Source of the DNA: a virus
IMG/VR virus record: IMGVR_UViG_3300025131_000098
Span: 1-42,285 of that record
Length of the DNA stretch: 42,285 nt
Direction: 5' to 3' (one strand)
Below, one piece after another: positions 6,479 to 34,609 of this stretch. Position numbers and translations under genes: made by a program. Numbering within the stretch: the first letter of the stretch is position 1; the number at the start of each line of letters is the position of its first letter. The notes beneath the pieces were generated by a model, which worked only from the letters and a program-made list of their open reading frames with translations, searched no databases and was not told the DNA's origin.

Positions 6479-7552
6479 ATGAATGTGGTTACACATACCG
6501 AAAACGTATTATCCTTGTACGCAGGCGGAGGCGGCCTCGACATTGGATTCAAAATGGCTATACCAGCAGCTAGAACAGTCTGTTACATTGAGAGAGACAT
6601 CGCATCAGTCGCAGTACTGGCGCAAGCAATCAAACAAGGGCACTTGGATGACGCGCCTGTTTGGTCAGATTCCCGAACCTTCGACAGCAAACGCTGGCGT
6701 GGAAAAGTGGATTGGGTCATTGGCGGATTCCCATGCCAGCCATGGTCGGTTGCGGGGAGTCGCGCAGGCGAAAAAGATGAAAGGTGGCTCTGGGATGACA
6801 TCAGCAGCATCATTCGCAGCATTCGACCCTGGGGCATCTTCCTGGAAAACGTTCCAGGTCTCATTACTGGACATGGAATTGATACCATACTCGGAGACCT
6901 TTCCCAAATGGGGTACGATGCTGAGTGGGGAAGCGTCAAGGCCGCAAGCGTGGGCGCAAATCACAGAAGGGAGCGTGTCTTCATCTTGGCGTACAGCCGC
7001 GGCTTCCGATGGCGAAGGTGGGGTGAAGAAAATGACCGAAGGTTCGAACAGCAAATACAAGCTGCGGGATCACTCAGTAGAGATGATGATTCAATGGATG
7101 ACCCCAAACACTTTGGATGGGATAGCTGCAAGATCCATCAAGGCGATCAAAAAACAATTTCAGACAACTCGCAAGGGCAGAAACACGCCTGCAAATCTGC
7201 GCGAGCAGGTGCTACCGCAAATGCACCCAAGCGCGTGGGCAAAGAAAAAAACAGTAAAAAATCCCCTGGCAGAAGATGCAGCTCTTCAGAGGCAGCTGAA
7301 TTTCCAGTTTTTCCCCCAGGACCAGGCGCCAGCGCGTGGAAACAAATACTCCGTACTTACCCGCATTACGCGCCCGCAGTGGAAAAAACTACGCCTGAAC
7401 CCAATGTTCGTGGAATGGCTAATGGGTTGGCCGCGGGGCTACACAGACTTGACAGGCTTAGAGTACTCGGAAACGGGGTCGTACCTGCGCAGGCAACTTA
7501 CGCACTTAGGTTGCTTATTGAACAAGCAAAAAAAAAGGACGCACGAAATTAA
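6479..7552 (+). CDS. dcm: DNA cytosine-5 methyltransferase
   Basis: It transfers a methyl group from S-adenosylmethionine to carbon 5 of cytosine in a specific DNA site. Motifs in order: I, VLSLYAGGGGLDIGF (10-24); IV, GGFPCQPWS with the catalytic Pro-Cys (85-86); VI, LENVPG (122-127); VIII, NHRRERVFIL (161-170); a variable target-recognition region (about 172-275); and X, LRVLGNGVVPAQA (327-339). At 357 aa it is full length. The ATG at 6479 is only one base after GGAGG; the GTG at 6485 has a seven-base gap and may be the true start. The gene is visibly GC-richer than its neighbours, which suggests transfer. It probably protects phage DNA from host restriction, as no partner nuclease is seen. 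A second 360-aa frame covers the same DNA. Confidence 0.93.
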   Translation: MNVVTHTENVLSLYAGGGGLDIGFKMAIPAARTVCYIERDIASVAVLAQAIKQGHLDDAPVWSDSRTFDSKRWRGKVDWVIGGFPCQPWSVAGSRAGEKDERWLWDDISSIIRSIRPWGIFLENVPGLITGHGIDTILGDLSQMGYDAEWGSVKAASVGANHRRERVFILAYSRGFRWRRWGEENDRRFEQQIQAAGSLSRDDDSMDDPKHFGWDSCKIHQGDQKTISDNSQGQKHACKSARAGATANAPKRVGKEKNSKKSPGRRCSSSEAAEFPVFPPGPGASAWKQILRTYPHYAPAVEKTTPEPNVRGMANGLAAGLHRLDRLRVLGNGVVPAQATYALRLLIEQAKKKDARN

Positions 7553-7565
7553 CGTGCGTCCTTAA
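6483..7565 (+). CDS. overprinted protein in the methyltransferase gene, 'SWKT / FVEWLMGWP' family
   Basis: A second frame is open for 360 codons across the whole methyltransferase gene. Its ATG is five bases after AAGGAGG, better placed than the methyltransferase ATG. It carries motifs I remember from a widespread phage protein group associated with cytosine methylases: GASSWKTFQVSL (117-128), SETFPKWGTM (137-146), WMTPNTLDG (205-213), NLREQV (238-243) and NPMFVEWLMGWPRGYTDL (306-323). The SWKTFQVSL motif is the out-of-frame reading of methyltransferase motif VI (LENVPGL). The FVEWLMGWP motif lies opposite the segment before motif X. The frame continues 13 bases beyond the methyltransferase stop, through the terminator hairpin. 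With equal base frequencies the chance of 360 stop-free codons is about 3 in 10^8. Function unknown; no catalytic residues are assigned. Confidence 0.7.
   Translation: MWLHIPKTYYPCTQAEAASTLDSKWLYQQLEQSVTLRETSHQSQYWRKQSNKGTWMTRLFGQIPEPSTANAGVEKWIGSLADSHASHGRLRGVAQAKKMKGGSGMTSAASFAAFDPGASSWKTFQVSLLDMELIPYSETFPKWGTMLSGEASRPQAWAQITEGSVSSSWRTAAASDGEGGVKKMTEGSNSKYKLRDHSVEMMIQWMTPNTLDGIAARSIKAIKKQFQTTRKGRNTPANLREQVLPQMHPSAWAKKKTVKNPLAEDAALQRQLNFQFFPQDQAPARGNKYSVLTRITRPQWKKLRLNPMFVEWLMGWPRGYTDLTGLEYSETGSYLRRQLTHLGCLLNKQKKRTHEINVRP
7535..7563 (-). terminator. intrinsic terminator for the leftward operon
   Basis: A perfect 11-bp stem (AAGGACGCACG at 7535-7545, CGTGCGTCCTT at 7553-7563) with a 7-base loop. 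On the minus strand it is followed by a run of T (the A-run just left of the stem). It should stop leftward transcripts before they enter the methyltransferase gene antisense. The stem also encodes the C-termini of both overlapping proteins, and the methyltransferase stop codon lies in the loop. It has no U-tract in the rightward direction. Confidence 0.8.
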
Positions 7566-16291: not shown

Positions 16292-16568
16292 GTTTTCCCC
16301 CTTTATATACAAGGTTTTCTATGGTTTCAGTGCCACTCCTGAAGGTTTTCCATACTTTGATGGTTCTTTTCTCGTGGCCATCTATTGTTTTTGGTGACGC
16401 TGCTTTAATAACGCCTTTTGCTTTAGCAAGTTCAATCCACCTAATATCGCTAAGATGTGGATTGGCTAACTCTGTCGGGACAAAGAACGCTCTTTTTACA
16501 GCAGTGTTCTGAACGTCCATCTCAAAACTGCTTGGATTTTTTATCCAAACCTTTTCATGTTTATTCAT
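16284..16568 (-). CDS. small hypothetical protein
   Basis: A 94-aa protein, MNKHEKVWIKNPSSFEMDVQ. It has a beta-rich core with a KRTIKVWKTF segment, predicted soluble and basic. A GAAAGGGGGTAG lies upstream of the ATG. It overlaps both neighbours by 8 bases, the usual spacing in this operon. It could be a small DNA-binding or host-takeover protein by position near the start of the early operon, but no motif proves it. Confidence 0.65.
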   Translation of the reverse strand: MNKHEKVWIKNPSSFEMDVQNTAVKRAFFVPTELANPHLSDIRWIELAKAKGVIKAASPKTIDGHEKRTIKVWKTFRSGTETIENLVYKGGKHV

Positions 16569-16953
16569 AACTACCCCCTTTCAAGTGATAGTAACGTGAA
16601 TCACCATCATCAGACTGAGTATCTCGGTCTAATTGATCGTAATCAACGTCTTGGTTGTATTTATCAGTGTCTCTTGCAATTATCTTTCCGTTTTGCGTTA
16701 CACTGTCGTAGGCTTCGGCAAACTGAAGCACATCTTGTGGGTCATTGTAAGTCATTACTTCTTCGGCACTACCAATGTAGGATGCCTTGTCGTCATTACC
16801 AATCGCACGAGACAACTCAACTGTATCGTGAGCTGCTTCCTTTAAGTCCTGTTTAGTTTGTCTAGCCACTCCTAGTTGTAACCTAAGAGCATCGTACTCA
16901 TCACGAGTAAGTATTACTTTGTTGTTTATATTATTGTTAAGAATTAAAACCAT
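16561..16953 (-). CDS. first gene of main leftward operon, hypothetical
   Basis: A 130-aa protein. The N-terminus is hydrophobic/Asn-rich (MVLILNNNINNKVIL), followed by a helical, charged region (TRDEYDALRLQLGVARQTKQ) and an Asp-rich C-terminus. Its ribosome binding site (AAAGGAAAT) forms part of the large purine hairpin at 16962-17019, so translation may be controlled by that structure. No family recognised. Confidence 0.65.
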   Translation of the reverse strand: MVLILNNNINNKVILTRDEYDALRLQLGVARQTKQDLKEAAHDTVELSRAIGNDDKASYIGSAEEVMTYNDPQDVLQFAEAYDSVTQNGKIIARDTDKYNQDVDYDQLDRDTQSDDGDSRYYHLKGGSYE

Positions 16954-16961
16954 TTGGTTAT

Positions 16962-17019
16962 TTCCTTTCTTTCTTTTTCTTCTTCTCTAATTCTTAGAGA
17001 AGAAAAAGAAAGAAAGGAA
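16962..17019. repeat. long purine/pyrimidine hairpin 2, over the first gene's ribosome binding site
   Basis: The left arm 16962-16990 pairs with 16994-17019 over 26 bp, loop TTC, with one 3-base TTC bulge in the left arm. In the leftward transcript the 3' arm ends in AAAGGAAAT, the ribosome binding site of the 130-aa gene, which would be buried. It has the same architecture as hairpin 1 (15117-15180). Melting or RNase III-type cleavage could switch translation. Confidence 0.7.
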
Positions 17020-17040: not shown

Positions 17041-17088
17041 TCATTCCCTGAATTTATACATTGTTAACATGGTTGTATTTAGTCCCAT
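17041..17088 (-). CDS. possible 15-aa leader peptide
   Basis: Within the leader of the leftward operon, AAAGGAA precedes ATG 17088. The frame MGLNTTMLTMYKFRE then ends at TGA. The ribosome binding site sits in the loop of a 6-bp hairpin (17087-17105). It could be a leader peptide, but it is short enough to be chance. Confidence 0.25.
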   Translation of the reverse strand: MGLNTTMLTMYKFRE

Positions 17089-17114
17089 AGTGTTCCTTTC
17101 ACTATTCTCTATTT

Positions 17115-17146
17115 ATTATACCTAAATCATTCTGTTCTTTGCACAA
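17115..17146 (-). promoter_or_regulatory. candidate promoter of the main leftward operon
   Basis: On the minus strand there is a perfect TATAAT (17120-17115). The best upstream hexamer is TTGTGC (17146-17141), 20 bases away, longer than the usual 17. It would start a transcript near 17108 with a leader of about 155 bases reaching the 130-aa gene through hairpin 2. The -10 is convincing and the -35 weak. Confidence 0.45.
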
Positions 17147-17462
17147 GATGTTCACAATTAGCATATGATAACCAAGCCAAAAGATGCACAAATTACGGGC
17201 CTGGCCTAACGTACGCTGCACGCTGCTACGCAATTTCCTTGCGCTGCCCTGGGGGAAGTTAAAGGGAAGTCGGCTACTTAATAAATTTTACCCCCCTTTT
17301 AACACACAAACTGGGGGTAATTTAGTTCAGGCATAATAAAATAAAATTGCGTCTTTATTACTTGTGTACTCTTGTCTTCTTTTTGCGTTATGACCACTCG
17401 TGGTCTTATGCGAAGGTTTACAAGGGGTTTTTCTAATGCGCGCTAGACGCGCATTATAAAAA

Positions 17463-17527
17463 TTCTCTATTAAAAACTAGGGGCGTAGCCCAGGACCTGG
17501 CTCGGCAGGTCCTTTTTTAATAGAGAA
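17463..17527. repeat. nested three-way hairpin
   Basis: An outer 14-bp stem (TTCTCTATTAAAAA at 17463-17476 with 17514-17527) encloses two hairpins. One is GGGC-GTA-GCCC (17481-17491); the other is GGACCTG (17493-17499) with CAGGTCC (17506-17512). The result is a compact three-way junction. The U-rich right side of the outer stem after the GC hairpin could also act as a rightward terminator. Confidence 0.75.
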
Positions 17528-17741
17528 GGCATCACGCCTTAGGATATTTTTTAAAAAAAAATATCCTTAAACGAAGCGCCAGCGTACGCTTCGTTAGGTC
17601 CTTTGAGTATCAAAGGACCAGGGCTTGGAACAAGCCCAATCCACTTTTTTTACGCTGGAAAAAAATGGATTATTACTTTTTATCTTTAAAAAGTAAACAA
17701 AAAAAGTTATGATAGGCGCACTTAAAGCGACTATCATAAAA

Positions 17742-17773
17742 AAAGGAGTTAGGGTTTAATCCCTAACTCCTTT
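17742..17773 (-). terminator. intrinsic terminator downstream of the 18.6-17.85 kb genes
   Basis: A perfect 13-bp stem (AAAGGAGTTAGGG at 17742-17754, CCCTAACTCCTTT at 17761-17773), loop TTTAAT. On the minus strand it is followed by a run of T. It lies just beyond the two small leftward genes and should end their transcript before the main leftward operon, which appears to have its own promoter. Confidence 0.75.
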
Positions 17774-17852
17774 AACTTCTTACGTGACAGGGCAATGCCC
17801 AGCCACGCAAGAACGATTAATCGTTTATGTTTCTTTACATCAACTGTCACGA

Positions 17853-18113
17853 TTAATCTAATAGATGCCCCAATGTTCCTTTTCGAAACATTGTAACATC
17901 TAAACCTTCAGCTTCCATATCAGATACAGCCTGCACGAAGCATGCTCTATCTAATCTGGCTTGTTTCACTTCATCATTAAGTGAATCAAGTTCATTCACG
18001 TCTAACACAACAAAGTTTGATGTGTTAGATTGGTCTGGAAGACCAACCCCTGACGCAAGTGCGTCAGGGGCTATTTGTTCATTCAACTGAAGGTTATCCA
18101 ATTTTGGCTCCAA
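17853..18113 (-). CDS. small hypothetical protein encoded through tandem hairpins
   Basis: An 86-aa frame with a TTG start at 18113; no ATG is available and the ribosome binding site (AGGA) is poor, so the true start is uncertain. The C-terminal part (VVLDVNELDSLNDEVKQARL and beyond) looks like an ordinary helical acidic protein. It overlaps the upstream gene by 20 bases. Its coding DNA contains four perfect hairpins (17871-17893, 18001-18029, 18030-18046, 18047-18070), so the sequence seems shaped by structure as well as by the protein. No family recognised. Confidence 0.5.
   Translation of the reverse strand: MEPKLDNLQLNEQIAPDALASGVGLPDQSNTSNFVVLDVNELDSLNDEVKQARLDRACFVQAVSDMEAEGLDVTMFRKGTLGHLLD
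18001..18070. repeat. three back-to-back hairpins inside a coding sequence
   Basis: TCTAACACA (18001-18009) pairs with 18021-18029. TTGGTCT (18030-18036) pairs with 18040-18046. CCCCTGACGCA (18047-18057) pairs with 18060-18070. The stems are 9, 7 and 11 bp, all perfect, with no bases between the hairpins. They translate in the leftward gene as APDALASGVGLPDQSNTS and following residues. Confidence 0.85.
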
Positions 18114-18588
18114 TCCTGAATGTCGCTTTTTTGGTCGGGTCAGCCTTCCCAGCCTTCTGGACTGACTTGAGTGAACCCCTTAAAGACTCAAGGTCTTTAT
18201 GCGCGTTCCTAGCGTCAGTACCAGTTGACCACTTACAGTGTGCTAGGTGATAAACACCTTTCTCACTGAAAGTCTTCCCATCGGCTGACTTAATCGCCCA
18301 AAAGTATGGTGTTGCCATAGTCACTTTAGGCTTGTTGTCAGAGGCCATTGGTAATGACGACTGGAGAATTTCGATGTTCTCACCAATTATTTCCGATTGT
18401 GTCTTCTTAATTGGTTGAACAACCCCCACCTGCACAACAGGTATTTCAGTTGTCACCACTGGACTTTCAACTACAGTAGTAGTCGATGCCACTGGCTCAA
18501 CTCCTGAAGTGCCACTGATGTCTGAAAGTTTCAAACCTAGTTTTTCGGCTGTTGCCATAGTAATTGTCACAAACTCTTCTTGAGTCAT
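18094..18588 (-). CDS. hypothetical protein, first gene of the short leftward unit
   Basis: The ATG at 18588 (MTQEEFVTITMATAEKLGLK) has AAAGGAGCAAATC upstream; the longer frame to 18645 adds an unsupported extension. It gives 164 aa. Residues 1-25 are helical, 26-60 form a Val/Thr/Pro-rich linker, and the C-terminal part (ATPYFWAIKSADGKTFSEKG, then HCKWSTGTDARNAHKDLESL) is a small, perhaps DNA-binding or structural, domain. Short inverted repeats occur in this gene too (for example 18181-18199 and 18245-18259). Function unknown. Confidence 0.65.
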   Translation of the reverse strand: MTQEEFVTITMATAEKLGLKLSDISGTSGVEPVASTTTVVESPVVTTEIPVVQVGVVQPIKKTQSEIIGENIEILQSSLPMASDNKPKVTMATPYFWAIKSADGKTFSEKGVYHLAHCKWSTGTDARNAHKDLESLRGSLKSVQKAGKADPTKKATFRIGAKIG

Positions 18589-18649
18589 GATTTGCTCCTT
18601 TGAATAAGGATTTCGTGGGGGAAAAACTCCCAACCACATGTCCACTTCA

Positions 18650-18681
18650 ACATACCTTGGCGCTGTGCTTATTCTGTCAAC
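18650..18681 (-). promoter_or_regulatory. candidate promoter for the short leftward unit
   Basis: A perfect TTGACA (18681-18676 on the minus strand) is followed, 20 bases later, by TATGTT (18655-18650). The spacing is long, so the -10 is uncertain. The -10 region also forms one arm of a 10-bp inverted repeat, AACATACCTT (18649-18658) with AAGGTATGTT (18747-18756), which could be an operator or a cruciform arm. Confidence 0.4.
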
Positions 18682-19219
18682 CGCTCTTGCGGCGCTAAAC
18701 GCGTCCTTTATTTTCTTCTTCAGAAAAAAAAGGATTGACCTAATAAAAGGTATGTTACACTTCGGACATCAAGAGAGGAGAGATTTGACGTTAACTTATT
18801 AAAAGTTAACGCTTTTGATTCTTTTAGGATTTGCTGTGTAAATCTGTTAAAAAGAATATCAGTGATTCATCTCAATTTTCATTGCGTTGGGAACGCAATT
18901 AAAATCCGCCCTTATGCAAGTGCTTGTGCTTCAAGCACTGGCATGTGCAAGTTATACGTTAACTTGCACGCGGTCTAATGATTAGTTTATGGCATTTTAT
19001 GAGCTGCGCTCCCTTGTCGCCAGAGGCGAACAAGGCAAATGCTGTAAACTAAGGGATTAGTGCCACGCTGTGCGTGACACGCCCCGCAATTATGAGCCCA
19101 CTTAGGCTCATAAAGCGTCATTAGATGAGATGAATCTCAACGTCACCCCCCACCAGAGCCTTTCGTAACGTTGTGCGTTACGAAAGGATAATCTTCAGCA
19201 CAATGCTTCGATTATGGGG

Positions 19220-19298
19220 AAACCTAAGGCTCCTTGCTTACGCTGGAGCCATAAGAACTAAGGGCTCAATGCCCTTAGGTCTTATTAGCCTTAGGTTT
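19220..19298. repeat. multibranch (cloverleaf-like) structure with CCTAAGG words
   Basis: The outer stem AAACCTAAGGCT (19220-19231) pairs perfectly with 19287-19298. Inside, ATAAG + CTAAGGGC (19251-19265) pairs with GCCCTTAG + CTTAT (19271-19285) around loop TCAAT. A GGCTCC/GGAGCC hairpin (19228-19250) competes with the outer stem for GGCT, so two alternative folds are possible. It lacks tRNA features such as an acceptor-length stem, T-loop consensus or CCA. Confidence 0.75.
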
Positions 19299-19608
19299 GG
19301 GAGAGCACGTCCCCGTGCTCTCTGGCTATCGTAGGGGCTCAATGCCCCTGCTCTAGCCCTGGTCCTGCTCTCGCAGGACCTTTACGGCGCCCCGTTTGGG
19401 CGCCGTTAGGCGTGATGCCCCCCTTGTAAACCTTATGGTGGTTCTCAGAGCGCTGAGTACTTCCTACCTATTGCCAGGGAACTATAAGGGTGATACGCGT
19501 GTGCCCGCCTAATGCGCTACGTTAAGAGCCCTAAGTACTTCCGTATCTCTTATCCCCTAAAGAAAAGATATACTACGTATATCCAAAAGAAAGGGTCCTT
19601 TTCTCTTT

Positions 19609-19637
19609 TTGACGAATGCTTCAGAGTACGCTATTAT
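19609..19637 (+). promoter_or_regulatory. sigma70-like promoter of the rightward late operon
   Basis: TTGACG (19609-19614), exactly 17 bases, then TATTAT (19632-19637). Each hexamer matches the consensus at five of six positions. Transcription should start around 19644-19645, at the ATG of the first gene. It follows directly on hairpin array B and precedes the first rightward gene. Confidence 0.7.
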
Positions 19638-19644
19638 GCCCTAC

Positions 19645-20343
19645 ATGGAGTCTACGGATATAAATGAAATAGTTTACTTTCTTTACAGCAATCATCACGT
19701 AAAGATTGGCAAGGTTACAGCTAAAGACCAAGACATAAAGTCTAGGGACAATGAAGATGCTGTTGTAAGTAGATTAAAAAGTTGTCAAACAGGCAACCCT
19801 GACAAAATATATCTTTTAGGCTACATGTTTGGGAGTGAGTCGCACTGGCACAAACACTTTGAAGAACACAGAGGCAATGGTGAATGGTTTGGTTTTTACG
19901 ATAATGTTAAACATGCAATAAGCAAACTACCGCTCTATGTTAGCCAAGCTTACTTAATTGACTCAATGGTTGAATTAGGTAACTTCCAAAAACGAATACA
20001 AGAATACGAAAACAACAAAGCAAAGTTCAATGATTACCTTTGGGAGAAAGACCGTGTTTTTGATTCCTACGAAAACAAAGAAGAAGATTTAGAGTTTGCA
20101 AGAAAACATTGTTTTGAAATCGGCTGGTTTTTATCTGAAATGTTTAGTGCAGGTCATATGCACTTTGCAGAAAAAAGAAAAACAAGAATAAAAGATTGGT
20201 TCGGAGATATTATTGAAGTCGGCGATAATTATTTTTCAGCAAACTCTTCTGTGTCGGCTGAAGGCATAAGCGTAAAAAACGCAGTATTGTTGTTTAAAAA
20301 TGCAAAAAAATATTTAGAACTTAAAGAGATGGTAAATGGCTGA
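19645..20343 (+). CDS. GIY-YIG (T5orf172/MUG113-type) nuclease-like protein
   Basis: From ATG 19645 it is 232 aa, beginning MESTDINEIVYFLYSNHHVK. An in-frame TTG at 19609 coincides with the promoter's -35 and is not preferred. The segment IVYFLYSNHHVKIGKV, then VVSRLKSCQTGNPDKIYLLG, ESHWHKHFEEHRGNGEWF, follows the T5orf172 variant of the GIY-YIG fold: Tyr, Lys-x-Gly, the RL...GNP segment, and His/Glu before GEWF. The C-terminal ~120 residues are helical and charged. It may nick or cut DNA, as a homing-type enzyme or for packaging, being just before the terminase. No Shine-Dalgarno is visible; it may be leaderless. It overlaps the next gene by 8 bases. Confidence 0.7.
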   Translation: MESTDINEIVYFLYSNHHVKIGKVTAKDQDIKSRDNEDAVVSRLKSCQTGNPDKIYLLGYMFGSESHWHKHFEEHRGNGEWFGFYDNVKHAISKLPLYVSQAYLIDSMVELGNFQKRIQEYENNKAKFNDYLWEKDRVFDSYENKEEDLEFARKHCFEIGWFLSEMFSAGHMHFAEKRKTRIKDWFGDIIEVGDNYFSANSSVSAEGISVKNAVLLFKNAKKYLELKEMVNG

Positions 20344-21010
20344 CTCAAATAACCCATACAGAAAGAAATCGAAAAGATTGGTGCCTAGTGCCACTAAGAC
20401 ATCTAAAAGATTGTCTGGCTTAACACCAGATGGCCTGAGAAAAAGAGTTCTTGATGCACTGCCCTACTGGGAGAGATATCCTAGACTGTTTAGAAAGGTA
20501 TTGATTCTGCTGCCGACTCATGGTGATTTGGAGTCCATTGCTGAAGAGTTGAAGATGGAATATGACGATTTGGTTATCAGGGTTGAAAAGAAGCCTACCT
20601 TCTCTAAACTTGTGAATTTCATCAAGGATAATGGCCACTACCCCAAATGTGAAACAAGTGGTGAATATCTAAAGCATGCCAACCTGGTTGAACACTATGC
20701 CAATGAAAGTACCGTATCTGCTGTGATAAACTTGGAAACAAATGCTGGACAAGCACCAATTAATCACAAGATAGTCGATAATGCGGGATGGTTTGCAAAT
20801 ATTGAGTATGATACTGAAAGATTTAGGCGTGGAAAACAGCATTCACTTGACAAATACCAGCAAAAAATAGATTCTGAAGCTGCGGTAAGTGAAGCAGAAG
20901 AGGTTGTCGAAGAGGGATTACAGCCGTTTGTAAGGGACATTAACCCTGAGGAGGAAAATGCCGAGACAGAGAAGCAAGAAACTGAGGCCAAGAAACCTAG
21001 TAGCAAGTAA
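20336..21010 (+). CDS. probable terminase small subunit
   Basis: A 224-aa protein directly upstream of, and overlapping by 53 bases, the large terminase. The basic N-terminus (YRKKSKRLVPSATKTSKRLS), a helical region with DLESIAEELKMEYDDLVIRV that looks like a helix-turn-helix, and an acidic disordered C-terminus (PEEENAETEKQETEAKKPSS) suit a DNA-recognising small terminase. The role would be binding the packaging site and handing DNA to the large subunit. The assignment rests on position and composition; I see no diagnostic signature. Confidence 0.6.
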   Translation: MADSNNPYRKKSKRLVPSATKTSKRLSGLTPDGLRKRVLDALPYWERYPRLFRKVLILLPTHGDLESIAEELKMEYDDLVIRVEKKPTFSKLVNFIKDNGHYPKCETSGEYLKHANLVEHYANESTVSAVINLETNAGQAPINHKIVDNAGWFANIEYDTERFRRGKQHSLDKYQQKIDSEAAVSEAEEVVEEGLQPFVRDINPEEENAETEKQETEAKKPSSK

Positions 21011-22526
21011 AGCTGTTCCTAAATACACGCCATCTCCATGGCAAGATTCTTTGCACAGAAACCAATCTAAACGTAAATGGGTGTGGGCTGGTCGTAGAGC
21101 AGGTAAGGGAAGAGCAGCTATTCAGGAAGCCATATCTACAGTACTTGAAGCAAGCAAAACCAAATTCATTGTCAACGGCAATGATGTAACAGATACCCTG
21201 GTACCTGAAATACACATATGGACAGTTGCGCCAACCAAGGCACAGATGAGACAGGTATGGAATGAGATGAAAGCCTTTATTCCCAAGTATATGTGGAAAG
21301 ATTATTCCAGGGCAGGTGGCCGCGGGTCATGTTGGCACGAAGATGAATATTATGTAGAATTGGAAGTAAGACAGCCCAACGGGGCTTTCTCACCCGATAC
21401 TGTCCGCAGAAATGTTTTATGGGAACTGCGATCAGCAGATAATCCTGAAACACTACAAACTGTGGGTCTTGATTTTCTGCATATTGCCGAATCTCAAGAC
21501 GTTAAGGCTGTAGCTTGGGACAAGGTGGAATGGGTAACTGAGTCACCTGGTCGTATGGGTAGAATATTTGCAGAAGGCATCCCCCCTATATCCAGATCAC
21601 ACTGGTTCTCCAGGCAGTTCATGTATGCAGAAAACAACCCTTCGCTTCAAAATTATGCAGTCAGAGCTACAAGTTTTGACAATATGTATCTGACCGAGCA
21701 ACAGAAAAAGAACATACATGACCAGAAATACACCACAGCAGAGTGGATATGGGAACGAATGGTTATGGCGAAACAGCCAGATGTAGGTGGTGGTTTCTTT
21801 AGAAAAATTGATGAAGCTGCAAGGGGAACAGAAATAGCCAGGCCTAGAGAAGGACACAAGTACGTAGCAGGCCTTGACCTTGGAAAACAGGTTGACCCTA
21901 CTGTTCTTATTATAAAAAACCGAATTACAAGAGAATCTGTACATTCCATGGAAATGCTGAAAACAGACTGGGTTATACAGAAAGAAGCTATTATTGCCGA
22001 AACTAAAAGATGGGGCTGTGAGACTGTAATGATGGACTCATCAGGTATGGGTGGTGACGTACTATTTGACGAATTATTAAATCTCGGCGTCCCAGTAATT
22101 GGCCAGAAGTTCACTCCTCAGACCAAATACCAGTTGTTCCTGAACTATGCTGTAGCTTTGCAAAATGGCACTACGTCCTTTCCTCCTGAATGGTCAAAGC
22201 TCCAGATGGAATTAGATGCGATAGAAGTTAGACAAGCTGGACTCGGCTATAGCTTCGATCACCCTAATTCACCTCATGATGACTGGGTGGACGCCGAGGT
22301 GCTAGCGCTTATGGCGTGCGATCCTGCTGAAGCCATGGAAGAAGACTACAACCCAGTTTATTCAATTAAAACAGTTGCGCCATTGTCAAACAATGGTGTA
22401 TCTTATACAGAAGGACGCTTGATGCGATGGAGACGTCAAAGAAAAGCAAAGCAACTTGAAGAAATGCGGAAATTGACAGACATCAGCACAAAGCAAGAAT
22501 CAATACTATTAGACGCGATGGAATAA
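20958..22526 (+). CDS. terL: terminase large subunit
   Basis: The 522-aa motor and nuclease that pumps DNA into the capsid. The ATPase domain has Walker A AGRRAGKGRA (44-53) and Walker B LDFLHIAE with catalytic Glu (171-178). The RNase H-like nuclease domain shows Asp307 (AGLDLGKQVDPT), Asp360 (VMMDSSGMGG) and Asp442/Asp445 (HDDWVDAEVLAL). An AGGAGG three bases before the ATG supports this start, inside the 3' end of the small-subunit gene. The C-terminal ~60 residues are charged and helical, possibly for portal binding. All key residues appear intact. Confidence 0.93.
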   Translation: MPRQRSKKLRPRNLVASKAVPKYTPSPWQDSLHRNQSKRKWVWAGRRAGKGRAAIQEAISTVLEASKTKFIVNGNDVTDTLVPEIHIWTVAPTKAQMRQVWNEMKAFIPKYMWKDYSRAGGRGSCWHEDEYYVELEVRQPNGAFSPDTVRRNVLWELRSADNPETLQTVGLDFLHIAESQDVKAVAWDKVEWVTESPGRMGRIFAEGIPPISRSHWFSRQFMYAENNPSLQNYAVRATSFDNMYLTEQQKKNIHDQKYTTAEWIWERMVMAKQPDVGGGFFRKIDEAARGTEIARPREGHKYVAGLDLGKQVDPTVLIIKNRITRESVHSMEMLKTDWVIQKEAIIAETKRWGCETVMMDSSGMGGDVLFDELLNLGVPVIGQKFTPQTKYQLFLNYAVALQNGTTSFPPEWSKLQMELDAIEVRQAGLGYSFDHPNSPHDDWVDAEVLALMACDPAEAMEEDYNPVYSIKTVAPLSNNGVSYTEGRLMRWRRQRKAKQLEEMRKLTDISTKQESILLDAME

Positions 22527-27760: not shown

Positions 27761-30700
27761 ATGCCATTAACACCTTGGAGTGACAGATCACCTTGGACAA
27801 CAACACAAGAAATAGCCCAAAGAACTAGAGAAGAAGAAGAAAAGAAAAGAAAGCATCAAATAATTGTTCGTCTTGCTAATGAAGCCAGGCAGGGTGGAAT
27901 TGGTTCTGAACAATCTACCATTTTACAGCAAATAAGACGTAACTATCAACAGGAACAGGAAAATCAGCAGAAAAGATATAGAGGTATTCTAAGCGGACCT
28001 GCAAACATTTTTACTGAAAACGGCATTAGCGCCCCTCCTGGAGCTCAAAGGGGTTACCAGGAACCTACAGATTCGGGATTTAATCCGTTCAAAAGCATTT
28101 TAAGGGGGGCTCAGGTTGGCCTCGAAAAATGGCAAGAAGCTACTGAGGCGACAGCTGGAGCAACAGGTCAATTATTCAGTGAACAGGTAAGAACGAATCT
28201 TAGAAAAGGACTGGGTTATGGAGAAGCCTGGAGGCAATCACAATTTGCAACTACAAGAATTGGAAAAGAAAAAGGCGAAGGTTTTGGTTTTGATGTAGGA
28301 GTTAAAGGTGCGTACGAAATGCTTGTCGATCCTGTTGGTTGGGCAGCAATGGCTCTTCCTTTAGGACTTATAATGAAACCCTTTGGTAAAGGCGCAAACA
28401 AACTTCTTAATATAACCCCTCAAGCAAAAGCAGGAAAAGCAGCAAAAGAAAGAATGGTAAAAGGAATAGATGCGGAAGTTTTAAGCAAATTAAAACTTAA
28501 AAAAGGGTCTAAAGGAGAACTTGCAAAATTACTTAAAGGAACCGCTCTTACTCCAAAACAGCAAAAAGAAGTACTTCAAAGAGGGTTTACCTCTAAGCAC
28601 ACCCACGCTTTTAGAAAACTTGGGGAACTGGATCTTAAAACTCCAAACAATAAGAGGATAACCGAAATTATGAACTACGATGAAATACTTGAACAACGTG
28701 GTTTGTTAGATGAAAGTTTTAAAGGTAATTTACTTAGATATATAAACGACCCTGAATCACAAAAACAAATGTGGATGACAGCTAAACCGTTTTGGCTTGG
28801 GCTTAGGAATGTCCATAAACTATTTAATCCTGCGTATAACAAAGGTGCAACACAACACGGAAGATTATCTTTGGCTTATAATGGCGAACTTGGTGCAATT
28901 TCATCTAAAGTTGACTCTTTAGTTGCTACTTATGGTCAGCCAGGTCATAGTCTTAATTCGCTTTTTCGTACACATACTTTTGATAGCAAGAAAACAGTCA
29001 AAGACGCTGCTACCAATCAAGAATTTAATTTTAATATACTCCGAACGGACCTTACAGCAGGGATTAATCAAGCCCCTATTAAAGGTATAACAACTGAATT
29101 TTCCAGAAAAACACAGAGAGACATACTTAAAAGGTCGGCTTCAGATTTATCAAAAGAGTCAGAATATTTAATTAACATGACGCCAAACGGAAAAGTAATT
29201 GTTTGGGAGCCAGGGGTAGGCGCTATTGCAACATTTAAAGCGTATGATACCCAAAACAAATTAGCTAAAAACTTAATAGAAGGTTTTGACAAATCTGAGG
29301 ATTTGGTGGACCAAGTGACAAAGCTAGACAATTTTAATCAAAATCTTTCCGATGCAAGGTTTATGTCTATGCAAGATAGTTCTATGGGGCAAGCTGTTTC
29401 AGGAAAAACAGGAGCTACTCAAACAAGAGCTGGAAGAGCAGGGCAAATAACATCATTTGACAATAGTTATTTAATGCTTCCTGAAAAAATGAAGTTTAAG
29501 TCTCCTATTGATCTTCCAGGCACAGCCATTACAAAAGGCAAAAGCACAACTCCTGACCAATATGTTCAGGGCTTGTTTGATAGCAGGCTAGGCAGGATGG
29601 AGCAAATTGATAAACAAATGGTAAAAATATCTCCATCAAGTAAAAAATACAAGGCATTAGACATAGAAAGCAGAAAAGAATTAAAAGAATTTAAAAAAGA
29701 TTTTGTTGGATTTTTAAACGTTATGTCAAGAAACCAGATCTATGGCAAGCAAAAAAGTACATTTAAAAAGAATCCTAGACAGCCCATAACAAAAATTATA
29801 TCTGGTGGACAAACAGGAGCAGATCAATTTGGAATAGAGGCAGCTATGGATCTTGGTATAGACTATGGCGGATCGGTTGCTTTAAACGATAAAGGAAAAT
29901 GGATGTTGGCTGACGCAGCCGTATCACCAAGGTATGGAGAAATTAATCTTTCTGGAAAATTTGATGATTCTATAAGAGTTGCTGACATGCCAGGCAGAAA
30001 TATGAAAGAAAAATCAGCTGAGGCGTACAGACGAAGAACTGCGAAAAATGTGGCTGAATCTGACGGAACTATCTATTTTTCAAACAATTTTATGGAAAAC
30101 GCAGAAGATTTAGCAAAAACCAGGGGGATTTCTATTTCAAAGGGTGGCGCTCCAGGAGAAGCTGGGGCAGAGAAAGTAGTTAGAAAAACCAAAAAGGGTC
30201 TTCCAGGAGGGGCAGTAGACTCGGAGCCAGCGTTCAAAAAAATCGGAGTTGATCCTAAAACTGGCAAAAACATATGGGAAGAGAATAGGCGTAAAATAAA
30301 GATAAGGGCGTCAGGCCAAAATAAGAGGTTACTAGAGGAAGAAAATTTAAAAAGGTCATTGATGGGTCTTGGTCCAAAATCAGTTAGGCGTGAGCCAAGC
30401 CCTGGGCAAAAATTAACATACAGAATATCTAAGGAGCAGGGCAAGCCGTTTTTGCTAGACCCAACCCCAAATCAATTAGCAGACTGGATTAAGCAACATA
30501 GTATAAAAACTTTAAATGTTGCAGGAAGCAGAGGAGACTGGCGTAAAATAGGTACTAAGCAAACCGCAGGAGGCCGAAGAGTTAGGCAAATAATTAGCGA
30601 AACGCTTGGGATGCAAACAAAAGAATCTACGTTTGATTTTGCTCCTAGATCACTTTCAAGAGAATGGAACAAAGATGTAAGCGGCAACTTAATAACTTCG

Positions 30701-33700
30701 GTAAGAGAAACAGTTCCTGATGAGGGCATGATATCTAATGTACAAGATGCGCTTGCTTTTCTTATTCCTAGCGGCAGAGGATCGGCTCCAGGAAACTTAA
30801 ATAAGGCAGTTGACCATATTATGGACTTTAGCACAGCTGCTAACGCAATACGAACAATGAGAGAAGGGTTAAAAAGAAACAGGCTTTATATGACGGTTCC
30901 AGGTAAAAAAATAGACAACCTGGGGCAGTTGTTTGCAAACTCTGACGTTGAAAAAGCAGTTATTGGCAACATGATGAGGGCTTTTGATAAATCTGGATTT
31001 ACTGGAAAAAGGCAAATAGACGCATTACTTTATAAAGATACTAAAGGCCAAACTCAATTTTTACACAGAGCTATGGGAGACCTTTATGACAAATTCCCTG
31101 GGGGCTTTAAAGAGCTTCCTGCTCATGTACAAGAAAAATATCCTCAGTTAGCCACTATGGGGACTGCTCAAGGCGTAAAAGAAGTTACTATGTCTGCTCT
31201 TGATTTTCTTGATACAGGTGCTCAAGTAGTAGGATATAACAATTCACTTCAAAGACCGATTAGAAAGTACAACCATATCTTTGACCTTAACCCTGCTCAA
31301 ATAGAGTTTTTAGAAAGCTTTTATAATGATTTTGATGAAGGGGCTAATCTATTAACAGCTCATGGCATTGATTTTGAAAATATATTTGAGAATACTACTG
31401 GAAACTATATTCACCATATGGTTGAAGAGTTTGGTGACATAGAAGAGCTGATCCAAGACCAGACTCTTTCTCGTCTATTAAACAACGCTGCAGTTACCCA
31501 AAAAGCTGCCTTTAAAAACCAAAGAAAAAATCTTTACGCTTCAGAGGGGATAGAAGAGCAAGGCTTATTGTATAACTCAGAACCCACTCATATATTAAAA
31601 GCATTTTTAACTGGTGTTTATAAAGAAATAGCTCAGAAAAAATATGTTGATAACATAGAGCTAGTTGCTGAGAAAGAAGTAAAAGGGATTGCTGGGCAAA
31701 TTGAAATGCTTGGTGAGTGGAAAGGAGCCCTTCCCAGCCTAGAAGAGCAGCAAAAAGTATTTAAGAATATAGGGGGAGCGATTGATTCAGGATTAATAGA
31801 TGAGGTGGCTATGCCAGCCATAGATAAAATAGATGAATTAATGAAAAATGTAAATTTAGGAGCAATAGTTGCTGACGAAGCAAGCGCTGAAAGTTGGAGC
31901 CAAATTAGAGGTCGTTTGCAAGATATAGCTCAAAGAGGAGGGCATTCAGATGAAATCCTTGAAGTTTTGAACAACTGGAATAAAACCATTGAAAAGGGTT
32001 ATCAGAAAAGAATAAATTATTTTGCAGGGCTTGCAAAAAAATATGACGCATCAGGAATAAAAGGAAACGAGTACACCAAGAAGCTGGGAGGTCTTTACAA
32101 AAGGGCTGTGAATTATAGGGCAGTAAAAGACCAAAGAAATCCTTATGCAGTAGAAGTTAAGGCTTTAAACGAAAAGCAATTATTTTTTGACGACATAACT
32201 GCTAGCGCTATAGAAGCAGACTTAGGTATTGATGCCAAGAAATGGTTTGACGAAGCTATTTCTTCTACTTCTAAGTATAACGATACATTAAGAACTATAC
32301 AGACAGGATTTGACGGAGGTACTGCCATGTTGCATGGATTACCTACTTTATTATCAGGACTAGGCCGAGTGCACACAGGAACGGGCAGGCAGTATTTAAG
32401 CGGCTGGGTCCAGGGAACCAAAAAGATGATTGGAATGATCGCTTTAGGAGCAACTAGGCATGGTAGATATGCTCCAAAGCTGCACGCAAAGCATGTTGCA
32501 GACAACTTTGATACATATCAACAAATGGCTCAATATGGGGTTTTAATTAGTGGATCAGGAAACGACTACTTTAAATCCAAAGGAAATGATTTTATTGTTC
32601 AGAGAGTCCTTAAAGAAGGTAGGTTTAGCAAAAGGGACAAAATAGGGGCGCTTCCTGGATTTGAAAGCGCAAAGCCGTTTATTGATGAAGGCGGAGCTTT
32701 TCTTGATGGTTTTCAAACAAGTTTTGAGCTTTATGGAGATATTATTAGAGAAACGTTGTGGAACGCTCATTACAATCAAATAGTTAAGTCTGGGTCAGAT
32801 AATGTAGAAAAAGAGCTGCTTCAGCTTGCAGAATATGTTAATGGCATGAGTGGTGCGTTTTCTAGTAAAAAAGCTGGAATAAGCGCAAGGCAAGCCAACA
32901 TAGAAAGCTCTATCGTATTTTTCTCTCCTTCGTATACTAGAGCAAGTTTGGGGCTTGTAGGAAGTGTGTTTAGTGGAGGTTTGCAGGGAGACGAAGCAAG
33001 AAAGTCAATCAGGGCAATGATGGCAGCAGGGCTAATGACACATAGTGGTGTGGCTATATCGCAAGCAAAAGCTGAAGCTATAGCAACTGGTAAAAAAGTT
33101 CCTTGGGATAAATATATTAAACTTGATCCGTCAAAAGCAGATTTTCTTACAATGGATCTACATGGAGTTAATGTTGGTTTTGGTTCAACATGGATGTCCT
33201 TGGCCAGAACATTAAGCAAAATTACCAAAGATCCAGCGTTTAGAGGAGATTTACTAGACTCTCCTATGTTGATGACTGGAGCTGGGCGAGGTCAAGCAGG
33301 ATTTGACGAACAAGGAATAAAAGACATTTTGGCTAACAATCAACTTGCGTATTGGTTAAGATCAAGAAGTTCTCCTGCTGGGTCTACAATGTGGAATTTA
33401 GGCATGGGGGCAAACTTTTTAGGAGACGAAATGCGTTTTGCTAGTGGTGACCACATATCAGAGACGCTTAAAGGTTTTTCTCCTTTTTGGGCGCAATCAG
33501 GTTTTGAGCAATTAGCAGAAGGAAATGTCAGGGAAGGAATATTAGGCGCTGTAGCTGAATTTGGTGGATTCAGGAATGTACCTGTAAGTAACTGGGAAAA
33601 AAGAAGCCAGGTTAGAGATATGTTGGGCAAACAACATTTTGGTAGTTCGTGGAGAGACCTAAATGATGTTCAAAAAAGGCATCTAAATAAGTCTGATATA

Positions 33701-34609
33701 TTTGAAACTGATGTTAACAGGCAAAGGCTTTTAGAACTTGACGCAGAAATAAAAGAAAAAAGAAGAGTTGTTGGCGGAGGAGAGTTAGATGGAAAAATAG
33801 ATGAATACGAATGGGCAATAGATGACGCAAGAGAAGTTTATAAGCAAACTATAGCAATGCACGTCTCTGAGTTATCTGAAGGTAATATGAGTCTTACTCA
33901 GTACAGAATACAAGAAAGAAGGGCCAGGGCTGATTACGGAAATGCGCTTCAAAGACAAAGTGAAAACTATGAAGATGTAACTGCTTATTTTGAATCTGGC
34001 AAAGGAAAGCTAAATGACACCGAAAGGTTTGAAGACTTTGCGTCTGACGAATACGCCGAAATTTATTTTAACGAAGAATGGGACTTGGGATATATGTTTG
34101 ACTACCAAGCCAGGGAGAAAGCTCTTTCTGAGTGGAGAGATATCTGGGGTCCTGAATTTGAAGAATACGCTAAAACAAGACTTTTTGGCCCTAGGTGGAA
34201 TGCAAACGGATTTAACCAGGAATATTATAATTACAGAGATCACTTTTTCCCAAGGTATTTTGAAGAAACAAGGAAACAAATTTTTCAAAGTAGATGGCAG
34301 GGTCAATTAGATACTGCTTATCAGCAGTGGTATAAAGCAAAACACAACCCTTTAGTTCAGGCCATGTTATTAAAAAGCAATCCTAATTTAAAAAAGGCAA
34401 TGAACGAATGGGATCAGTTAAAACTAGAATTTAGAAGAAAAGACCCTGAGTTAGATGCGTTTTTGTACAGATGGGGTCACACAAGTGTTTTAGAACACTC
34501 CTGGAACTCAGGACGAGAGCTTGAATTAAAAGCTCCATTTCCTATGCAAATATACGTTAGAGGGTGGCCTGGAGGCATTGGGAAAGGGTTTAAGGTTGCA
34601 GGAGAATAG
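27761..34609 (+). CDS. giant virion protein with inserted YpsA-like (MoCo-carrier-like) domain
   Basis: A 2282-aa protein, about one sixth of the genome. The N-terminal ~100 residues are charged and helical. A hydrophobic region occurs at about 185-215 (PVGWAAMALPLGLIMKPFGKG). Residues ~677-930 contain SGGQTGADQFGIEAAMDLG (681-699), an RT-x-x-NV segment and SDGT (767-770), then after an insertion of ~100 residues GKPFLLDP and LNVAGSR (918-924). This is the order of the circularly permuted YpsA/molybdenum-cofactor-carrier (SLOG-type Rossmann) family, which binds nucleotide-like ligands. The remainder is mostly helical and unrecognised. It is likely an internal or ejected protein with several functions. 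GAGGTGA precedes the ATG. No lysozyme-like domain was found. Confidence 0.8.
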   Translation: MPLTPWSDRSPWTTTQEIAQRTREEEEKKRKHQIIVRLANEARQGGIGSEQSTILQQIRRNYQQEQENQQKRYRGILSGPANIFTENGISAPPGAQRGYQEPTDSGFNPFKSILRGAQVGLEKWQEATEATAGATGQLFSEQVRTNLRKGLGYGEAWRQSQFATTRIGKEKGEGFGFDVGVKGAYEMLVDPVGWAAMALPLGLIMKPFGKGANKLLNITPQAKAGKAAKERMVKGIDAEVLSKLKLKKGSKGELAKLLKGTALTPKQQKEVLQRGFTSKHTHAFRKLGELDLKTPNNKRITEIMNYDEILEQRGLLDESFKGNLLRYINDPESQKQMWMTAKPFWLGLRNVHKLFNPAYNKGATQHGRLSLAYNGELGAISSKVDSLVATYGQPGHSLNSLFRTHTFDSKKTVKDAATNQEFNFNILRTDLTAGINQAPIKGITTEFSRKTQRDILKRSASDLSKESEYLINMTPNGKVIVWEPGVGAIATFKAYDTQNKLAKNLIEGFDKSEDLVDQVTKLDNFNQNLSDARFMSMQDSSMGQAVSGKTGATQTRAGRAGQITSFDNSYLMLPEKMKFKSPIDLPGTAITKGKSTTPDQYVQGLFDSRLGRMEQIDKQMVKISPSSKKYKALDIESRKELKEFKKDFVGFLNVMSRNQIYGKQKSTFKKNPRQPITKIISGGQTGADQFGIEAAMDLGIDYGGSVALNDKGKWMLADAAVSPRYGEINLSGKFDDSIRVADMPGRNMKEKSAEAYRRRTAKNVAESDGTIYFSNNFMENAEDLAKTRGISISKGGAPGEAGAEKVVRKTKKGLPGGAVDSEPAFKKIGVDPKTGKNIWEENRRKIKIRASGQNKRLLEEENLKRSLMGLGPKSVRREPSPGQKLTYRISKEQGKPFLLDPTPNQLADWIKQHSIKTLNVAGSRGDWRKIGTKQTAGGRRVRQIISETLGMQTKESTFDFAPRSLSREWNKDVSGNLITSVRETVPDEGMISNVQDALAFLIPSGRGSAPGNLNKAVDHIMDFSTAANAIRTMREGLKRNRLYMTVPGKKIDNLGQLFANSDVEKAVIGNMMRAFDKSGFTGKRQIDALLYKDTKGQTQFLHRAMGDLYDKFPGGFKELPAHVQEKYPQLATMGTAQGVKEVTMSALDFLDTGAQVVGYNNSLQRPIRKYNHIFDLNPAQIEFLESFYNDFDEGANLLTAHGIDFENIFENTTGNYIHHMVEEFGDIEELIQDQTLSRLLNNAAVTQKAAFKNQRKNLYASEGIEEQGLLYNSEPTHILKAFLTGVYKEIAQKKYVDNIELVAEKEVKGIAGQIEMLGEWKGALPSLEEQQKVFKNIGGAIDSGLIDEVAMPAIDKIDELMKNVNLGAIVADEASAESWSQIRGRLQDIAQRGGHSDEILEVLNNWNKTIEKGYQKRINYFAGLAKKYDASGIKGNEYTKKLGGLYKRAVNYRAVKDQRNPYAVEVKALNEKQLFFDDITASAIEADLGIDAKKWFDEAISSTSKYNDTLRTIQTGFDGGTAMLHGLPTLLSGLGRVHTGTGRQYLSGWVQGTKKMIGMIALGATRHGRYAPKLHAKHVADNFDTYQQMAQYGVLISGSGNDYFKSKGNDFIVQRVLKEGRFSKRDKIGALPGFESAKPFIDEGGAFLDGFQTSFELYGDIIRETLWNAHYNQIVKSGSDNVEKELLQLAEYVNGMSGAFSSKKAGISARQANIESSIVFFSPSYTRASLGLVGSVFSGGLQGDEARKSIRAMMAAGLMTHSGVAISQAKAEAIATGKKVPWDKYIKLDPSKADFLTMDLHGVNVGFGSTWMSLARTLSKITKDPAFRGDLLDSPMLMTGAGRGQAGFDEQGIKDILANNQLAYWLRSRSSPAGSTMWNLGMGANFLGDEMRFASGDHISETLKGFSPFWAQSGFEQLAEGNVREGILGAVAEFGGFRNVPVSNWEKRSQVRDMLGKQHFGSSWRDLNDVQKRHLNKSDIFETDVNRQRLLELDAEIKEKRRVVGGGELDGKIDEYEWAIDDAREVYKQTIAMHVSELSEGNMSLTQYRIQERRARADYGNALQRQSENYEDVTAYFESGKGKLNDTERFEDFASDEYAEIYFNEEWDLGYMFDYQAREKALSEWRDIWGPEFEEYAKTRLFGPRWNANGFNQEYYNYRDHFFPRYFEETRKQIFQSRWQGQLDTAYQQWYKAKHNPLVQAMLLKSNPNLKKAMNEWDQLKLEFRRKDPELDAFLYRWGHTSVLEHSWNSGRELELKAPFPMQIYVRGWPGGIGKGFKVAGE

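Follow-up and report, generated by a model that had tools for sequence, protein, structure and literature searches.

The DNA analysed here, referred to below as the window, is the full length of the IMG/VR virus record IMGVR_UViG_3300025131_000098 (42,285 bp). The record is classed linear, but its two ends are near-exact repeats of each other, like those of several relatives, so that it looks circularly closed; the genome looks to be one of about 40 kb from an uncultured marine phage group. The rightward genes start at 19.6 kb, include the terminase gene (20958-22526) and continue past the contig end as far as 7.5 kb. Those in leftward orientation extend from 17 kb down to 7.7 kb, and their products include a DnaC-like loader, a RecT-like annealing protein, an AAA ATPase and a protein with a weak VWA match. 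The hairpin tract lies at the divergence point of these early and late operons, a location given in an initial annotation of the sequence and borne out by the gene directions. The rightward operon is preceded by a sigma-70-like promoter on the plus strand (19609-19637; TTGACG, 17 nt, TATTAT), whose TATTAT ends about 7 nt upstream of an ATG (19645), so that the rightward mRNA would be nearly leaderless. Between this late promoter and the terminase genes, an ORF at 19609-20343 has a weak MUG113 (GIY-YIG-like) match; the segment 19632-20361 is 97.4% identical to the related record G013, whereas the neighbouring genes are less than 80% identical, and it is thus probably a mobile insertion. Elsewhere in the window, the interval 6479-7565 is taken up by a pair of ORFs (357 and 360 aa) that lie in different frames and overlap almost totally, the first matching a C-5 cytosine DNA methylase, and a late-operon protein of 2282 aa (27761-34609) matches a circularly permuted YpsA SLOG domain.

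Long perfect hairpins sit in the leaders of leftward genes, immediately ahead of the start codon, and their sequence varies by genome. In the window, a perfect leader hairpin of 22 bp or more on the minus strand (16962-17019) holds the ribosome-binding stretch of the minus-strand gene 16561-16953. Equivalents of other sequence were seen by eye at approximate positions 4785-4835 in L008, 4790-4840 in L007, 5690-5745 in L003 and 50-110 in L001. Between minus-strand genes lies a first, mostly non-coding hairpin array, A1 (about 17385-17851), delimited by stem counts and folding. It contains the probable terminator of a two-gene minus-strand unit (17742-17773; a 13-bp hairpin and a T run on the minus strand), and sites resembling it were likewise seen by eye in L001, L003, L007 and L008. 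The two small minus-strand genes are ORF2 (17853-18113), whose 3' half is similar to the 61-64 aa ORF2 of relatives, and ORF1 (18094-18645), which has no family match. A second, non-coding array, A2 (about 18780-19406), also recognized from stem counts and folding, includes a multibranched domain at 18864-19136. It is followed by a sequence-conserved, weakly structured block (19435-19600) that contains the element TAAAGAAAAGATATACTACGTATATCCAAAAGAAAGG at 19558-19594.

The initial annotation described hairpins lying end to end, each with its own sequence and several of them nested, and named shuffled sequence as the control. Hairpin density proved far above that control. Perfect Watson-Crick stems of at least 7 bp with loops of 2-12 nt numbered 26 in 17080-19590, against 1.46 +/- 1.06 (maximum 4) in 50 shuffles; non-overlapping stems of at least 5 bp with loops up to 10 numbered 47 and covered 36% of the region, against 17.4 +/- 3.7 and 11.5%; and there were 15 stems of at least 9 bp with loops up to 20, against 0.05. 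Stems of at least 8 bp occurred at 8.0 per kb in the tract and at 0.30 per kb in the rest of the window. The dense perfect stems are therefore real, but the tract is not continuous, as A1 and A2 are split by the two minus-strand ORFs, which are themselves mildly hairpin-enriched; hairpins are few in 17080-17384 and in the conserved block. Nesting is present as described: the 14-bp stem 17463-17476 / 17514-17527 has hairpins inside it, the multibranched domain of A2, closed by the perfect 11-bp stem 18864-18874 / 19126-19136, encloses several branches, and the longest mid-range stems of A2 are nested without overlapping the hairpins. The hairpin sequences are mostly unrelated, and many copies of one hairpin sequence, the trait of a repetitive element, were not found in the tract. 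However, the word GGGCTCAATGCCC occurs twice, and A1 and A2 have three inverted words in common, so the claim that each hairpin has a sequence of its own holds only in the main.

Searches with the terminase and the element gave 16 related records (G001-G016), with the locus covered in 14 and cut by the contig end in G001. No similar DNA was found among isolated phages, whose terminase relatives are 22-30% identical over parts only; no relatives were found in genome_contigs, and a protein search of viral contigs yielded none for ORF1. The locus was hairpin-rich in all six relatives measured, with 1.9-3.0 stems of at least 8 bp per kb against 0.22-0.40 elsewhere, and the sequences of these loci are unrelated. 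The relatives thus have a pairing habit in common and not a primary sequence, in line with the initial annotation. What is conserved in sequence across relatives is the block of about 166 nt at 19435-19600. G008, G010 and G012 are more than 93% identical in the block next to A2, yet their A2 sequences cannot be aligned: A2 is hypervariable between conserved flanks. The same arrays, identical or nearly so, are found in independently assembled records (G003/G004, G011/G012 and G015/G016), which rules out an assembly artefact. In G008 the gene at the position of ORF1 is zinc-finger-like (below the Pfam cut-off), and its counterpart in G012 has its cysteines in a similar pattern; that of the G003/G015 clade is unrelated. 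The small gene differs by clade, as in an exchangeable cassette. An element of the form TAAAGAAAA-stem-CCAAAARGAAAGG was also found in another group of viral contigs (L017, L019, L026, L041 and near-identical contigs), after a TTGACA promoter-like site and immediately before the start codon. This group has in common only the element TAAAGAAAA, and the two contigs tested gave no terminase match.

When A1 was compared with the reverse complement of A2 in the window, three collinear words of 15, 12 and 12 nt were found; shuffles gave 0.135 matches of at least 11 nt. Word a (19420-19434) is the perfect partner of a' (AAGGTTTACAAGGGG, 17413-17427), word b (19408-19419) pairs with b' (GGCATCACGCCT, 17528-17539) and word c (19355-19366) pairs with c' (AGGACCAGGGCT, 17614-17625). 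The outermost word, a, lies about 123-144 nt before the conserved element, a near-fixed distance in relatives. The a/a' word came from the window scan and was then sought in all genomes: G001, G003-G008, G011, G012, G013, G015 and G016 each have their own inverted pair of clade-specific sequence, and G009 and G010 have none at 10 nt exact. Far longer complementarity exists in G001, G008 and G009/G010, where the non-coding right arm is complementary to the left arm of the same genome, gene included. The z values for a genome's own arms were 49 (G001), 37 (G008), and 28 and 26 (G009/G010), and non-self values mostly fell within +/-3, the exceptions being the close pair G009 vs G010 (23-25) and the G010 left arm vs the G008 right arm (7.7); all are rough, since the matrix was built with hand-set split points, 8 shuffles per cell and a standard-deviation floor. 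The scores of a separate scan, for which the split point was the best of 15 and the shuffles were not re-optimised, were not used as evidence, and gap-lenient alignments, which favour gaps, were not used for indel claims. With ordinary blastn, G001 is the only genome in which the long inverted copy is recovered (E = 3e-20). For the window, pairing of the whole arms was rejected (z 1.2, not significant), and whole-arm complementarity gave no signal in the window and seven other genomes. Genome-specific inverted copies of neighbouring sequence are thus present in three lineages, and the window has short words.

Comparison of the long arms of G009 and G010 revealed 47 breaks, 6 gains and 3 double changes, with pairs defined on G009, which favours the detection of breaks. 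Pairs are lost one-sidedly, which suggests that the long pairing is decaying, and selection keeping the long arms paired was not seen between these two genomes. Short hairpins hold their pairing better than the long arms: clearly aligned ones in G003, G005 and G006 changed on both sides, and the leader hairpin of G008/G010 is compensated with respect to that of G012, on both sides and with three adjacent bases changed at once; both observations comprise few cases. The window arrays are without a close relative, so their hairpins cannot be dated. An excess of G+T in 5' arms, predicted by one template-switch model, was 130:100 in the window (p = 0.056) and was not seen in relatives (p = 0.56).

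Folding was very strong on both strands. Minimum free energy z scores against shuffles on the plus and minus strands were -19/-18 for A2 and -11/-17 for A1, the fold energies of the two strands were nearly equal, with -0.47 kcal/mol/nt on both for the A2 core, and a fold of A2 with DNA parameters gave z = -23.5. G-U pairs made up 3-5% of the minimum-energy array folds on either strand, compared to about 13% in shuffles and about 15% on the sense strand of E. coli 16S and 23S rRNA folded in the same way, for which the antisense folds were clearly weaker. Pairing is therefore Watson-Crick and equal on both strands, as the initial annotation had it, and selection for very stable hairpins might likewise account for the low G-U content. 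Single mismatches inside window helices (2 G-U, 3 A-C and 6 other) showed no preference for G-U, and strand assignment from G-U vs A-C mismatches was dropped, the counts being too few or mixed.

Such folding could reflect selection at the RNA level, with A2, and perhaps A1, forming a large structured minus-strand RNA that would be the leader of the two small genes or a separate non-coding RNA. The nested multibranched domains and the short hairpins that keep their pairing through double changes would fit this reading, as would the A2 minus strand, in which three of three tetraloops are GNRA and unpaired positions are A-rich, RNA-like signals that were picked out among several features examined and weigh less than their nominal chance. 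However, the loop and A/T signals favour different strands in different relatives, several relatives have only a modest fold excess, and neither the locus nor, in a consensus analysis across relatives, the conserved block yielded a common fold. Both strands carry terminator-like sites between the words, which weakens the case for a single a-to-a' RNA helix as the organising principle. A tRNA is commonly, not obligatorily, found near GOLLD, ROOL and OLE RNAs, and the window contains none. A covariance-model scan of the window with all Rfam families gave no match at the gathering threshold, and GOLLD, ROOL and OLE were absent among relaxed-E-value Rfam matches in the window, L007 and L008, the GOLLD negative resting on these all-family scans. 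Nor did the arrays have the strand-specific fold with normal G-U content that is expected of these RNAs. The region resembles GOLLD and ROOL in being large, elaborately folded, phage-encoded and non-coding, and GOLLD in particular in its conserved 3' part and variable 5' part (PMC12286853); unlike them, it has no covariance-model match, no nearby tRNA, no strand asymmetry and few G-U pairs, and its conserved block is the weakly structured part. Low G-U, strand symmetry and the lack of an Rfam match argue against a conventional ornate RNA like GOLLD or ROOL, analogues that the initial annotation had brought in and that our results do not support. A large structured RNA read from the minus strand appears to us rather unlikely.

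Equal pairing on both strands and the DNA-parameter fold of A2 would be expected of a selected DNA foldback, in which the hairpins and a/a' sites act as single-stranded or cruciform DNA in replication initiation or packaging, or as paired sites for a regulator or recombinase. The clade-specific inverted a/a' sites lie near both divergent operons in most relatives, and the cassette gene, which would encode the regulator or recombinase, differs by clade and is zinc-finger-like in one (below the Pfam cut-off). A GC-skew minimum lies near the tract, but the skew also follows gene direction, and iteron-like GGGAAGT repeats, weak and not universal, are found in the window, G003, G005 and G007 only. 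Proximity to an origin could explain the place of the tract, the evidence for an origin being weak. Three records bear on a possible packaging or genome-end site. In the closed assemblies G011 and G013 the break lies within 200 nt of the conserved element, and contig G002 stops about 310 nt away; this may reflect a real end, or else difficulty in assembling variable sequence. The assemblies of the window, G003, G005 and G007 break elsewhere. Against a selected foldback, the architecture is not conserved, the long arms of G009/G010 lose pairs one-sidedly and the window has no long-range complementarity, and we hold this explanation to be improbable. We also give little credence to a locus kept globally self-complementary, in which all that lies between two inverted, co-changing sites would fold back, whether into arrays of local hairpins or into a single long rod that pairs the non-coding arm with the coding gene; continual templated copying would maintain the locus in this state, and the phage would use it as a folded element. 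That the tract is a mere accumulation of ordinary intrinsic terminators and leader hairpins is very improbable: terminator-like sites number 11 against 2.9 expected and one terminator and one leader hairpin look functional, but most of the 47 stems have no T run, hence are not terminators of the GC-rich stem and T run type, and the nested domains and the gene-region inverted copies in three lineages also stand against it.

The reading we favour, with a probability of roughly 0.45, is that the divergence region is a fast-evolving one, into which inverted copies are written by template switching, a few of its hairpins being ordinary terminators or leaders. Replication-associated templated copying would repeatedly write nearby sequence, inverted, into non-coding stretches. 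At short range this would produce perfect local hairpins such as those of A1 and A2, and at long range inverted copies of the neighbouring gene region such as those of G001, G008 and G009/G010; the same copying may also keep short stems perfect. A minority of hairpins, such as the terminator at 17742-17773 and the leader hairpin at 16962-17019, would have ordinary jobs. The initial annotation had proposed DNA-level structure or template-switch repair, and if hairpins are made or repaired by template switching, inverted copies specific to each genome and changes on both sides of a stem, once of three bases, are readily understood. The strand-symmetric Watson-Crick pairing with few G-U pairs, the mismatches without G-U preference, the collinear inverted words of A1 and A2 and the hypervariability of A2 also speak for this reading; we infer that template switching is the cause, that it recurs and that most hairpins are by-products. 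We count against it that no event was caught in the act, that the G+T bias is borderline or absent, and that the GNRA loops and the nesting are RNA-like; a neutral process should, moreover, leave more half-decayed stems than are seen.

Template-switch mutations are known to give rise to hairpins and to repair them (Monttinen and Loytynoja 2022, PMC8794818), with perfect stems and inverted copies of neighbouring sequence like those described here, and with multi-base double-sided changes, for which the phage group offers a few aligned cases. There, they were inferred from single events in RNA gene histories, whereas here a dense phage intergenic tract with gene-scale inverted copies is seen without a reconstructed event. 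Mitochondrial double-hairpin and repetitive hairpin-forming elements (e.g. PMC2800124) also fill intergenic DNA with dense hairpins, but they are repeated families, and in the tract hardly any two hairpins are alike in sequence. Origin-dependent inverted-repeat amplification (PMC10766183) likewise involves template switching at forks that gives inverted copies around an origin; it has been described for large inverted copy-number variants, whereas the phage copies are short and degenerate and an origin at the tract is only putative.

If the favoured reading holds, dense perfect hairpins and a very strong fold z score do not on their own point to a structured RNA, and the G-U fraction and strand symmetry should be checked. 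The origin and upkeep of perfect stems is an open question in RNA evolution. If template switching is indeed at work in this locus, the phage group would offer a natural hot spot for watching it build perfect stems, and a fast-replicating phage would make the question testable.
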